A DNA stretch of 40,497 bases from the IMG/VR virus record IMGVR_UViG_3300008117_000631, positions 1 through 40,497 of that record; one strand, 5' to 3'. Source of the DNA: a virus. How positions within the stretch are numbered: position 1 is the first letter of the stretch; each line of letters begins with the position of its first letter. The notes under the pieces are model-generated. The model did not search any database and was not told the DNA's origin. It was given only the letters and a program-made list of their open reading frames with translations. The position numbers and the translations under genes are program-made. Below, one piece after another: positions 3,501-39,946 of this stretch.

Positions 3501-4697
3501 ATGGAAGAAGAAAATAAACTAAGTCATTGCAGTTTTTGTGGAACAAACAAAGAGTTTGTTAAGAAACTAATAGTAGGTGATGGGATAGCTATATGTAGCG
3601 ATTGCGTAGAATTATGCAATGAGCTAATAGCAGATGATTCCAAAATTGAAAGTTCCGAACCATCACCTAACTATGATCCTGAATCTATAAAAAATTATTT
3701 AGATTCGCATGTCATCGGTCAAGAGCAAGCCAAAATAGTTCTTAGTGTTGCAATAAGTAACCACTATAAACGTATTACTCATCCACCAAAAGATTTGGAA
3801 ATTCAAAAAGGTAATGTGCTTATTGTAGGTCCTACTGGTTCAGGTAAAACATTGCTCGCCAAAACAGTAGCAAAATATCTTAAGGTGCCTTTCATTGTTG
3901 CTGATGCTACAAGCTTGACAGAAGCAGGATATGTAGGTGATGACGTAGAGAGCATGATTAACATGCTATTAAACGCTGCTGGAGGGGATGTGAAACAAGC
4001 AGAGCGTGGAATAATATTTATTGATGAGATAGATAAAATTGCACGTAAGGGAGAAAGCACTAGTATAACCCGTGACGTAAGTGGAGAAGGCGTTCAGCAA
4101 GCACTACTCAAATTAGTTGAAGGTACCGTTTGTAGAGTTTCAGGCCAAGGTGGACGAAAGCATCCGGGTTCTGATATGCTAGAAATTAATACAAAGAACA
4201 TTCTGTTTATTGCTGGTGGTGCATTTGTAGGTCTCAAAGATGTAATCACAAACAGAGTAAATGGGACAAGTATAGGATTTAGTGCTAACATCAAAGACAA
4301 TAAAATTGAGGGAGAATTGTCAGACGTTACTCCGGATGACTTAACCAAATATGGAATGATTCCTGAATTTATAGGTAGATTTACTACTACAGTTAGCATA
4401 GCAGAATTAACCAAGGATCAATTAGTTCAGGTACTTACTGACGTAAAAAATAACTATATTTCACAGTACAAATATCTGTTAGGATTAGATGATGTTGAAT
4501 TGACCTTTGGTAATGATGCACTTGAACAGATAGCCGAAAATACAGTATCACTCAAAACCGGAGCTAGGGGTTTGCACACTGAAATTGAAAGAGTTTTGAT
4601 GCCACATATGTATAATGTAGGTAAATACAAGGAAAACAAAATCAAAACGCTAAATATTAATAGGGACAAAGTTCTCAATCCTAAATCAATTTTATGA
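3501..4697 (+). CDS. clpX: ATP-dependent Clp protease ATP-binding subunit ClpX
   Basis: A full-length ClpX (398 aa), the AAA+ unfoldase that feeds substrates to ClpP. Visible parts are the N-terminal zinc-binding domain (Cys10, Cys13, Cys32, Cys35), Walker A GPTGSGKT (110-117), pore loop GYVG (143-146), Walker B IIFIDE (171-176), the RKH loop (219-221), the IGF tripeptide that docks on ClpP (258-260) and sensor 2 GAR (354-356). All key elements are present, so an active unfoldase able to bind host or phage ClpP is expected. Its stop overlaps the start of the bS21 gene (ATGA). A TATAAT lies at 3472-3477, but its -35 is poor. It could redirect host proteolysis during infection. Confidence 0.97.
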   Translation: MEEENKLSHCSFCGTNKEFVKKLIVGDGIAICSDCVELCNELIADDSKIESSEPSPNYDPESIKNYLDSHVIGQEQAKIVLSVAISNHYKRITHPPKDLEIQKGNVLIVGPTGSGKTLLAKTVAKYLKVPFIVADATSLTEAGYVGDDVESMINMLLNAAGGDVKQAERGIIFIDEIDKIARKGESTSITRDVSGEGVQQALLKLVEGTVCRVSGQGGRKHPGSDMLEINTKNILFIAGGAFVGLKDVITNRVNGTSIGFSANIKDNKIEGELSDVTPDDLTKYGMIPEFIGRFTTTVSIAELTKDQLVQVLTDVKNNYISQYKYLLGLDDVELTFGNDALEQIAENTVSLKTGARGLHTEIERVLMPHMYNVGKYKENKIKTLNINRDKVLNPKSIL

Positions 4698-9093: not shown

Positions 9094-9122
9094 TTGACAA
9101 TAAATCCATTTGGGCATATAAT
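9094..9122 (+). promoter_or_regulatory. Sigma70 promoter with conserved spacer, copy 1
   Basis: TTGACA (9094-9099) and TATAAT (9117-9122) with a 17-nt spacer that starts ATAAATCCATTTGG. This spacer recurs nearly unchanged in other promoters of the window. TATAAT is followed by 6 nt and then the ATG at 9129, so the mRNA should be leaderless. Confidence 0.85.
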
Positions 9123-9365: not shown

Positions 9366-9394
9366 TTGACAATAAATCCATTTGGGCATATAAT
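9366..9394 (+). promoter_or_regulatory. Sigma70 promoter with conserved spacer, copy 2
   Basis: Identical over all 29 bases to copy 1 at 9094-9122: TTGACA (9366-9371), the same 17-nt spacer, TATAAT (9389-9394). Here a leader of about 24 nt with AAGGAG precedes the ATG at 9425. Confidence 0.85.
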
Positions 9395-14612: not shown

Positions 14613-15464
14613 ATGCCTACACCTTTAAACTTTAATAGACACATAATGTTCAGTGATACAACTGGGCATAATATAGAATTTGATAAATCATTTGACTTTT
14701 TTAAAAAATGGGATGAATACACCCTAACTGTTGATTCAAATAAAGGCCCACTAACAGTAAAATGGAACAATTTACAGGTATTAGCTGCTAACTGGTTTGT
14801 TCAAACAGGATCATTAACAGGACAGCCTGTATTACAAAACTTTTTTGAATTTTTTCCAATGTGGGTCAAATGGAACTGGTGGAACTTAAGTGAACGAGGA
14901 ATTTATGATCTACCCGACAATCCAACAATAATTGATATTGGTGCCGGAAACAGTGTTCTTGATCTATTGTTATCACAATATAATCCAACTGCGAAGTTTT
15001 ATTTAGTAGATAGGTCTAAATTTATAAACACTGATAATCAACCAAAATATCCCACCACAGATAGTCCTTGTTGGCAGCATTCATGGAGTGTAGTCAGTGA
15101 TGCTATAGATGCCACATCTATTGATCCAAATAGATTTAATTTTTTAGATATTGATGATGCATGGAATGTTGAGGCTGATTTAATTACCTCACATCTAGCA
15201 TGGTGTATGCATTTTCCAAAACAGATTTACTGGGATAGAGTGTTATCTAGTTTAAAAATTGGTGGTAGATTAGTATTAGATATTAACATAGGTTGGGAAG
15301 AGGAATATTTAGATGAAATTAGTGAAGCGTTGAATTGTAGACACACTATCATTACTTCTTTTCCTAACAAACCTATACATAACGGTCATCTGCCAGCCAA
15401 TCAGCCTAATAGGGATAAACTTAACATTGCCGGTTATCGATGTTCTTGGACACGTAAAAAATGA
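14613..15464 (+). CDS. Class I SAM-dependent methyltransferase-like protein
   Basis: A 283-aa protein with the Rossmann SAM-binding motif IIDIGAGNSVLDLLL near residues 105-120, then FYLVDRSKF (acidic residue at the end of strand 2) and a later DADLITSHLAW-like segment. It overlaps the radical SAM gene by 4 nt, so both enzymes probably act on one substrate. That substrate (sugar, lipid, peptide or nucleotide) is not indicated. Confidence 0.75.
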   Translation: MPTPLNFNRHIMFSDTTGHNIEFDKSFDFFKKWDEYTLTVDSNKGPLTVKWNNLQVLAANWFVQTGSLTGQPVLQNFFEFFPMWVKWNWWNLSERGIYDLPDNPTIIDIGAGNSVLDLLLSQYNPTAKFYLVDRSKFINTDNQPKYPTTDSPCWQHSWSVVSDAIDATSIDPNRFNFLDIDDAWNVEADLITSHLAWCMHFPKQIYWDRVLSSLKIGGRLVLDINIGWEEEYLDEISEALNCRHTIITSFPNKPIHNGHLPANQPNRDKLNIAGYRCSWTRKK

Positions 15465-36327: not shown

Positions 36328-36735
36328 TTAGTTGCCCAAAATGTAGGGCTGATTCCAACGACCAATGTTAACATCAACATACCAACCTACATTGAAATAG
36401 TCAGTTTGGATATCCGACTTATCCCAATTGCCCTCATTCATTGCAGTGAAAATTTCCTTAAGAAATTTCTTTGCAACACCATCAAAATGGTCCTGATACC
36501 AGTACGGGTTTACATCCAGTGACTGTTCCGCAGCAGAACCATTACGAAAGCCACCGGGCTGAGCAGACACTACACTATTGTAATTACCGATAAAATCAAT
36601 TACACCCGATTTAATGGTCAAGCACAATGTCATGTGATTACGGACACTCAGCGAACCCTTAACATTGTACTTTTTAAGGATTGCCTTAACGACTGGGGCG
36701 ATTTTTGCTTTCTTTTCTTGGGACATGTAAGCCAT
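36328..36735 (-). CDS. Hypothetical phage protein, 135 aa
   Basis: Begins MAYMSQEKKAKIAPVVKAIL, followed by KKYNVKGSLSVRNHMTLCLT and a C-terminal DYFNVGWYVDVNIGRWNQPY. I have seen this layout as a conserved phage family of unknown function. CAGGAG precedes the ATG; promoter at 36768-36796. Confidence 0.75.
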   Translation of the reverse strand: MAYMSQEKKAKIAPVVKAILKKYNVKGSLSVRNHMTLCLTIKSGVIDFIGNYNSVVSAQPGGFRNGSAAEQSLDVNPYWYQDHFDGVAKKFLKEIFTAMNEGNWDKSDIQTDYFNVGWYVDVNIGRWNQPYILGN

Positions 36736-36767: not shown

Positions 36768-36796
36768 ATTATATAGCCAAACGGATTTATTGTCAA
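36768..36796 (-). promoter_or_regulatory. Conserved-spacer sigma70 promoter (minus, a)
   Basis: TTGACA (36796-36791), spacer beginning ATAAATCCGTTTGG, TATAAT (36773-36768). The TGA stop of the upstream gene is inside TTGACA. Confidence 0.85.
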
Positions 36797-37026
36797 GTTT
36801 TGGGTGTGTTTCTTGAGGGAAACTTTTTACACCACATGCACTTCTCACTTTTATTTCCGTAGAAATATAAGCCCATGTCGGGAAATTTTTGTTTACACGC
36901 CTTGCATGTAAACACTTTCATTTCCACTTCTGTTTCTTTTTTAGCAACCTTTTTAGGAGTTGCTTTCTTCGCTGGTGTTTTCTTTGCTGGTACTTTCTTC
37001 GCTACTGATTTTTTTGGTAAGGGCAT
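36793..37026 (-). CDS. Lys/Ala-rich protein with C-terminal zinc ribbon, 77 aa
   Basis: Starts MPLPKKSVAKKVPAKKTPAKK, a histone-H1-like K/A/P tract, and ends in a zinc-ribbon-like FTCKACKQKF ... CMWCKKF. The start at Met6 of the longer frame is preferred because the longer frame has no ribosome-binding site. It may bind DNA. Its first 74 nt overlap another gene in a different frame. Confidence 0.65.
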   Translation of the reverse strand: MPLPKKSVAKKVPAKKTPAKKATPKKVAKKETEVEMKVFTCKACKQKFPDMGLYFYGNKSEKCMWCKKFPSRNTPKT

Positions 37027-37144
37027 GTAATCTATCCGCACAGTTTCTTATATCCTCGCTAAGCTTGCCTACACCAATATTGGATTCAACAAACCTAGCA
37101 ATGTTATGCAGTTCTATGACTGCAGTTTCTTTAGTTGTATCCAA
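36953..37144 (-). CDS. Small protein, 63 aa, TTG start
   Basis: The start is a TTG at 37144, with AGAGG 9 nt upstream. Core ELHNIARFVESNIGVGKLSE then DIRNCADRLHALTKK, the pattern of a common small phage family, followed by a Ser/Glu-rich tail. The tail is encoded by the same DNA as the K/A tract of the next gene, in another frame. Both frames look genuine. Confidence 0.6.
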   Translation of the reverse strand: MDTTKETAVIELHNIARFVESNIGVGKLSEDIRNCADRLHALTKKISSEESTSKENTSEESNS

Positions 37145-37295
37145 CTTCGTAATCCTCTGGCTCAAGCATATCTGCCTCAAGTACAGCATCTTGGTAAGTA
37201 TTTGCTTGCAATTGAATCACCTGACCTTCAAAGAATGATGCCATATAACCTGAGGTTGAAGGATCATAATCAATACTGATAAGAAAATTACTCAT
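37131..37295 (-). CDS. Small protein, 54 aa
   Basis: Begins MSNFLISIDYDPSTSGYMAS. A strong AAGGAG lies 8 nt before the ATG. Ends DMLEPEDYEVGYN. Overlaps the gene downstream by 14 nt and touches the stop of the gene upstream. Unrecognised. Confidence 0.6.
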   Translation of the reverse strand: MSNFLISIDYDPSTSGYMASFFEGQVIQLQANTYQDAVLEADMLEPEDYEVGYN

Positions 37296-38102: not shown

Positions 38103-38131
38103 ATTATATGCCCAAACGGATTTATTGTCAA
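38103..38131 (-). promoter_or_regulatory. Conserved-spacer sigma70 promoter (minus, b)
   Basis: TTGACA (38131-38126), spacer ATAAATCCGTTTGG plus GCA, TATAAT (38108-38103). It differs by one base from the copies at 9094 and 9366. Confidence 0.88.
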
Positions 38132-38370: not shown

Positions 38371-38399
38371 ATTATATACCCAAACGGATTTATCGTCAA
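38371..38399 (-). promoter_or_regulatory. Conserved-spacer sigma70 promoter (minus, c)
   Basis: TTGACG (38399-38394), spacer ATAAATCCGTTTGG plus GTA, TATAAT (38376-38371). Confidence 0.85.
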
Positions 38400-39917: not shown

Positions 39918-39946
39918 AGTATATCGCCAAACGGATTTATTGTCAA
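39918..39946 (-). promoter_or_regulatory. Conserved-spacer sigma70 promoter (minus, d)
   Basis: TTGACA (39946-39941), spacer ATAAATCCGTTTGG plus CGA, TATACT (39923-39918). The TGA stop of the upstream gene is inside TTGACA. Confidence 0.8.

Follow-up and report, generated by a model that had tools for sequence, protein, structure and literature searches.

Two small genes of an uncultured phage, here called A and B, most plausibly form a same-strand terminal overlap in the +1 frame within an operon, the start of B lying inside A; a probability of about 80% may be assigned to this reading. The window, meaning the whole stretch of DNA that was analysed, is a virus record of 40,497 bases, in which three small genes (a 54-aa gene, A and B) are closely spaced on the minus strand. 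The region used by both genes spans 74 nt (36953..37026, minus strand), and encodes the C-terminal tail of A along with the Lys/Ala/Pro-rich N-terminal leader of B. Read from the sequence, the ATG of B resides at 37026-37024 and the TAA of A at 36955-36953, and the limits set for the overlap in the original prediction are exact.

According to the model proposed, the start codon of B and its signal would lie in the Ala-Asp-Arg-Leu-His codons which close the conserved part of A, and this would allow separate initiation of B during the translation of A. The same bases would then be read as the basic leader of B and the polar tail of A, up to a T-ending B codon which precedes Lys and makes the TAA of A. 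Selection would act on the core of A, which precedes the overlap, on the zinc-ribbon core of B, which follows it, and on the embedded start signal of B; looser selection would keep the tails open and polar in A, and Lys-rich in B. We infer that both proteins are made, and that the tails may tolerate many polar or basic sequences.

Organization of the locus

Gene A (63 aa from a TTG, 36953..37144, minus strand) is defined by its ORF, by the alignment of its family and by a structure model. Gene B (77 aa, 36793..37026, minus strand) consists of a basic leader modelled with low confidence, and a zinc-ribbon-like core of the type CxxC-x18-CxxC. Within the overlap the tail of A reads ...HALTKKISSEESTSKENTSEESNS*, and B starts with MPLPKKSVAKKVPAKKTPAKKATPKKVAKK. 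The frame of B is +1 relative to that of A, and codon positions 1, 2 and 3 of A correspond to positions 3, 1 and 2 of B. The silent position of B is thus the first position of A. A stop is created in A where a T-ending B codon precedes a codon beginning with AA, AG or GA, here in CCT AAA. As anticipated, codon choice leaves both frames open over these bases. The conserved cores of both A and B reside outside the overlap, which codes for variable tails, C-terminal in A and N-terminal in B.

Translation of A likely starts at the TTG at 37144, to judge from related loci, and a Shine-Dalgarno-like AGAGGA (37153..37158, minus strand), whose function is putative, is found 8 nt before it. The ATG at 37189 was discarded as start of A because relatives carry a stop after it. 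This is the case in 5 of the 7 A-B relatives translated (L019, L020, L021, L022 and L027, L020 and L022 being identical); L017 and L018 are identical to the window around this ATG. Choosing TTG or ATG leaves the overlap unaltered. The TTG of A is contained in the end of the 54-aa gene which precedes it (MSNFLISIDYDP...EDYEVGYN; 37131..37295, minus strand, from ORF and translation), forming a second overlap of 14 nt (37131-37144). For the 54-aa gene, 17 related loci have been found.

At the opposite end, the TGA stop of B falls within the TTGACA of a promoter-like TTGACA-17-TATAAT sequence (36768..36796, minus strand), placed to serve the next gene. This 29-bp sequence (TTGACAATAAATCCGTTTGGNTATATAAT) has six matches in the window with at most two mismatches, and none in 100 shuffles. 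Four copies lie on the minus strand (36768-36796, 38103-38131, 38371-38399 and 39918-39946), two on the plus strand (9094-9122 and 9366-9394). The spacer is conserved along with both hexamers, and the copies are possibly a family of phage promoters. The 135-aa protein encoded at 36328-36735 (minus strand) matches phrog_10415, of unknown function, and shares 50-56% identity with proteins of Sinorhizobium phages such as phiM12 and phiN3, as well as with proteins of Variovorax phage V45v66 and Agrobacterium phage Atu_ph07; some of these phage relatives are annotated as DnaJ in their records. Elsewhere on the same virus contig, a ClpX-like protein with a ClpX C4-type zinc finger and an AAA domain is encoded at 3501-4697 (plus strand).

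The A and B families

A is a short helical phage protein, and its family includes at least 80 loci among the matches listed in a profile search. Members share the motif AVIxLHxIARxIExxIGxGQLSEDIRxCADRL, followed by a variable polar tail. Two helices are predicted in the model of A, the second of which reaches residue 52, inside the overlap; residues 54-62 score below 50 (pLDDT). The tail which follows DRL measures 15-24 residues in most loci of the A-B type, where the conserved motif of A mostly stops at Leu-His, the site of the B start. It measures 10-15 residues in loci in which the order is B-A. When A lies beside a clamp-loader-like gene, another tail of about 20 residues is often present.

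The tail of A had been described as acidic and Ser/Glu-rich. This is accurate for the window-type sequence, and does not extend to the family, since the tails of relatives are neutral or mixed polar (as an example, SSKENDQEI and KETYNTKEASCI). By charges counted by eye, the window type is alone in having a clearly acidic tail, that of L060 being less so; a conserved charge complementarity of the two tails was accordingly rejected. Judging from the sequences compared, the tail of A is better called a variable polar extension which shares its bases with the Lys-rich leader of B.

The gene next to A encodes an AAA+ clamp-loader-like protein in 14 of 55 A loci, with an overlap of 4 nt in 13 of them and 1 nt in one; in L086 (3165-4076) this clamp-loader-like neighbour features the Pfam domains AAA and Gp44_lid. 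In 5 of the 55 loci A overlaps by 17 nt with a following gene of the calcineurin-like phosphoesterase type. These neighbours suggest that A resides in a replication or repair neighbourhood.

Four cysteines mark the core of B. C41, C44, C63 and C66 (36829..36906, minus strand) are invariant columns among 13 aligned sequences, all of which keep the two CxxC pairs expected of a zinc ribbon or zinc finger. A fold search with Foldseek, run with the model of B, returned nothing at E <= 0.001 (best E 1.2), and the best sequence match among solved structures (E 0.016) is unspecific. In the model of B, confidence is low in the leader (block means 54, 44 and 48), and 79-86 in the core. The leader is Lys-rich in nine A-B loci, and outside this set in only one (L049) of 13 B genes. 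Its similarity to the Histone H1-like HC2 family (Pfam PF07382) was discarded, since it scores 19.2 bits where the family requires 40. L008, matched via a Lys-rich tract, was set aside as a relative of B because the tract belongs to a longer protein which lacks the B core.

Searches of PHROGs and of solved-structure sequences with A and B gave no significant or consistent match. Among named phages, nothing matched A or B, nor the 751-bp DNA or the protein at 14613-15464. The A profile, run against genome contigs, retrieved two weak Nonomuraea loci only, which were not used.

Overlaps in relatives and in both gene orders

Overlaps were surveyed in 55 of the at least 80 A loci, several loci in the counts being repeats of one contig, and nine distinct A-B sequences were obtained from 11 contigs. 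All nine junctions overlap, by 74, 59, 50, 50, 59, 59, 47, 50 and 29 nt, and in 9 of 9 the length is 2 mod 3. Conservation of a single frame, the outcome that would have spoken against the original prediction, is not what is found: both genes and their overlap recur in the nine distinct junctions. The impression that both proteins are real is likewise borne out, A and B each being a family which has a conserved core outside the overlap and recurs in relatives.

The two genes are found also in the reverse order. Taking the likeliest ATG of A, 7 of 9 B-A loci overlap by 20-41 nt, again in the +1 frame and with lengths of 2 mod 3 (L024, 29 nt; L026, 29; L031, 20; L032, 26; L033, 32; L043, 26; L069, 41), and in most of these an AAAGG or a similar run is located a few bases upstream of the ATG of A. 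What is shared in B-A loci is the C-terminal end of B and the N-terminal end of A. Gaps of 23 and 238 nt separate the genes in L023 and L025, respectively. A homologues next to other genes usually overlap the following gene by 1-17 nt. In L081, ORFs of 60-65 aa unlike B cover most of A in another frame, and these ORFs were left out of the counts. The occurrence of overlaps in either order suggests that the pair has a general tendency to compress, rather than anything particular to this tract.

Possible constraint on the shared bases

Selection might act on the leader of B alone, A simply running on until a chance stop in the Lys-rich tract. This is possible, if rather unlikely. When the amino acids of B were held fixed, and synonymous codons drawn according to the usage of the window, the frame of A stayed open as far as observed or further in 18% of simulations here, and in 8-43% (P 0.08-0.43) over the nine loci simulated in this way. 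An open A frame alone is weak evidence for selection, and these values fit an unselected tail; the recurrence of the overlap in nine junctions and the silent-site bias described below add to it, with the reservation that the loci have common ancestors. In keeping with a passive tail, the tail of A is unconserved, and in 8 of 9 locus pairs more amino acids of the overlap are identical in the frame of B than in that of A, a comparison which favours B, the frame used for the alignment, and which draws on non-independent pairs. The probable exchange of B alleles by recombination, discussed below, altered the tail of A too, as would be expected if the tail were passive.

Silent sites argue against such a passive tail. 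By the genetic code, a T at the third position of a B codon gives A a stop, Cys, Trp, Tyr, Phe or Leu codon, unless the next codon starts with C. T-ending codons were counted among the fourfold codons (Pro, Ala, Thr, Val, Gly) before the stop-making codon, the expectation requiring an open A frame. Only 6 of 65 end in T in the overlap, versus 17.6 expected (P = 0.0003); the counts are low, and, the nine loci being of common descent, this and the following P values are too small. Depletion persists when each lineage is represented by a single locus (6 of 50 versus 13.8 expected, P = 0.0027), and also when codons under the conserved end of A are excluded (3 of 33 versus 9.7, P = 0.0023). Taken singly, the loci reach P < 0.05 in one case, that of L060 (0.034), and T is not depleted in L068 (3 of 6 versus 2.3 expected).

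T is rarer in the overlap than openness demands, and the depletion stops at the stop of A, past which 28 of 48 fourfold codons in the leader of B end in T. Gene starts and the pooled Lys-rich tracts found elsewhere lack such depletion. In 36 window ORFs, T-ending codons amount to 86 of 218 at codons 2-24 and to 1157 of 2739 at later codons; they make up 48 of 149 in the leaders of B from 13 loci which do not belong to the A-B set, and 72 of 166 in a further 25 Lys-rich tracts, which include B leaders past the A stop and the overlap of L110 itself, and among which two L008 tracts are low (1 of 9 and 1 of 8). The avoidance of T inside the overlap, and not past the stop of A, suggests that both frames are constrained, and that the tail of A may really be used.

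Codon-position substitution patterns, which had been indicated as a check, go only part of the way. In three separate pairs, substitutions at the first, second and third positions of B are 1/1/5, 1/1/1 and 5/5/4. The bias toward third positions exists and is weak; constraint on the tails hence appears to be loose.

Probable recombination within the overlap

Two relatives, L020 and L021, are 99% identical across the upstream gene and the core of A, and 96% identical over the first 27 nt of the overlap. Past this point identity is 45%, 32% and 77% in three successive stretches. Beyond the overlap L020 is close to the window (96%, 91%), and L021 is nearer to L019 and L027 (84-88%, then 70-83%). 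A nearly identical A core joined to divergent B alleles indicates that a recombination breakpoint probably fell within the overlap, the tail of A changing along with the B allele.

A more ambitious reading, speculative and rather unlikely, is that the shared tract is a selected cassette which serves both tails, and at the same time the joint at which zinc-ribbon alleles of B are swapped. Silent tuning would provide B with a basic leader, and A with a polar, stop-free tail poor in Cys, Tyr and Phe codons; the first 27 nt, which are conserved, would act as the joint for exchanging B alleles, A receiving a new tail automatically; and the +1 overlap seen in both gene orders would reflect selection keeping the pair joined end to end.

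The start of gene B

The sequence GCGGATAGA (37031..37039, minus strand) corresponds to the Ala-Asp-Arg codons of A, and supplies also the GGA 8 nt before the ATG of B. It is unchanged in 8 of the 9 A-B loci. The exception is L110, in which B starts at another ATG, and A reads GCT GAT CGG. Of the last 31 codons of A before the ATG of B, four are codon-invariant in 8 aligned A-B loci, and three of the four are GCG GAT AGA. In a sample of window ORFs, GCG accounts for 8-11% of the codons used for Ala. Among other A genes having Ala-Asp at this place, GCGGAT is found in 4 of 40 (the count covers 51 distinct stretches out of at least 80 A loci), including L117, which carries the full GCGGATAGA. 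The ATG of B sits on an NAT codon of A in the 8 aligned loci, either CAT or, in L068, AAT. A pattern search across the B start matched 10 viral contigs, every one an already known A-B locus. RNA folding at the B start was computed for 7 of the nine A-B loci; z ranges from 0.66 to 1.89 in 6 of 7 and is -0.35 in one, 6 of the 7 sequences being less stable than the mean of their own shuffles; the B start thus has little RNA structure. As a start signal GGA resembles a Shine-Dalgarno sequence weakly, and in L110 none is evident.

Such a signal bears on whether B could be made by termination and reinitiation at the stop of A. In many A homologues the overlap with the following gene measures 1, 4, 14 or 17 nt, and the shortest spacings of this kind are described as usual for translational coupling (PMC10666635). 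The B start, however, is located about 70 nt upstream of the stop of A, and not within the few nucleotides which would join stop and start; in one study, as reported in a review (PMC12548453), coupling was already absent at an overlap of 25 nt. Given this distance, and with a conserved start signal of its own in B, coupling looks improbable, and B presumably starts independently.

Even less can be said for programmed +1 frameshifting at the seven-A run of the overlap (ACCAAAAAAATC), from which an A-B fusion would result. The run is present and B is in the +1 frame, but the length of the run varies (five A in both L020 and L021, six A in L019 and seven A in L027, with AAAGAAA in L015); the slippery site is thus not conserved, B retains its own ATG and start signal, and A and B are found also in the opposite order. 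The hypothesis is highly improbable and was rejected. That one of the two ORFs is no gene, an artefact of a low-complexity tract of the Lys-rich sort that often leaves a second frame open, is hardly credible, as A and B have conserved cores outside the overlap, and are otherwise arranged in other phages.

Comparison with known overlaps

Viral overlaps are known to encode disordered segments, and the A-B overlap similarly codes for low-complexity tails modelled with low confidence. In contrast to those cases, no new gene has been born here: A and B are otherwise arranged in relatives, and the tails alone overlap. A survey of viruses gives 14 nt as the median length for +1 overlaps, with an interquartile range of 8-26 (PMC8903798); with 74 nt in the window, and 29-74 nt between relatives, the A-B overlap is long by the figures of that survey. 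Phase-1 starts in bacterial genomes are reported to arise on NAT, NGT or NTT codons (PMC2542354), and the start of B, placed on an NAT codon of A (His CAT, or Asn AAT in L068), conforms to the pattern reported. According to a simulation paper, long phase-1 overlaps are explicable without selection (PMC3887535). The pvuIIC/pvuIIR pair is similar in that a small upstream gene holds the start of the downstream one, which is described as translated independently of the upstream gene (PMC2997769). As described there, the pvuIIC/pvuIIR overlap measures about 20 nt, belongs to a restriction system and has been tested experimentally, whereas A and B share 74 nt and are phage genes known from sequence alone.

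The same-strand +1 terminal overlap is an already known arrangement, fairly ordinary in compact phage genomes, and A-B is long for its kind; at present it is a tidy example, and not a surprising one. It illustrates how a start signal freezes codons of the upstream gene. Should the overlap really work as a joint for swapping B alleles, low-complexity overlaps could aid the exchange of modules between phages. As a small system found in nature, the pair lends itself to testing dual coding: two families overlap in either order, non-overlapping relatives (L023, L025) are available, and a silent-site signature can be measured against B leaders which do not overlap A.
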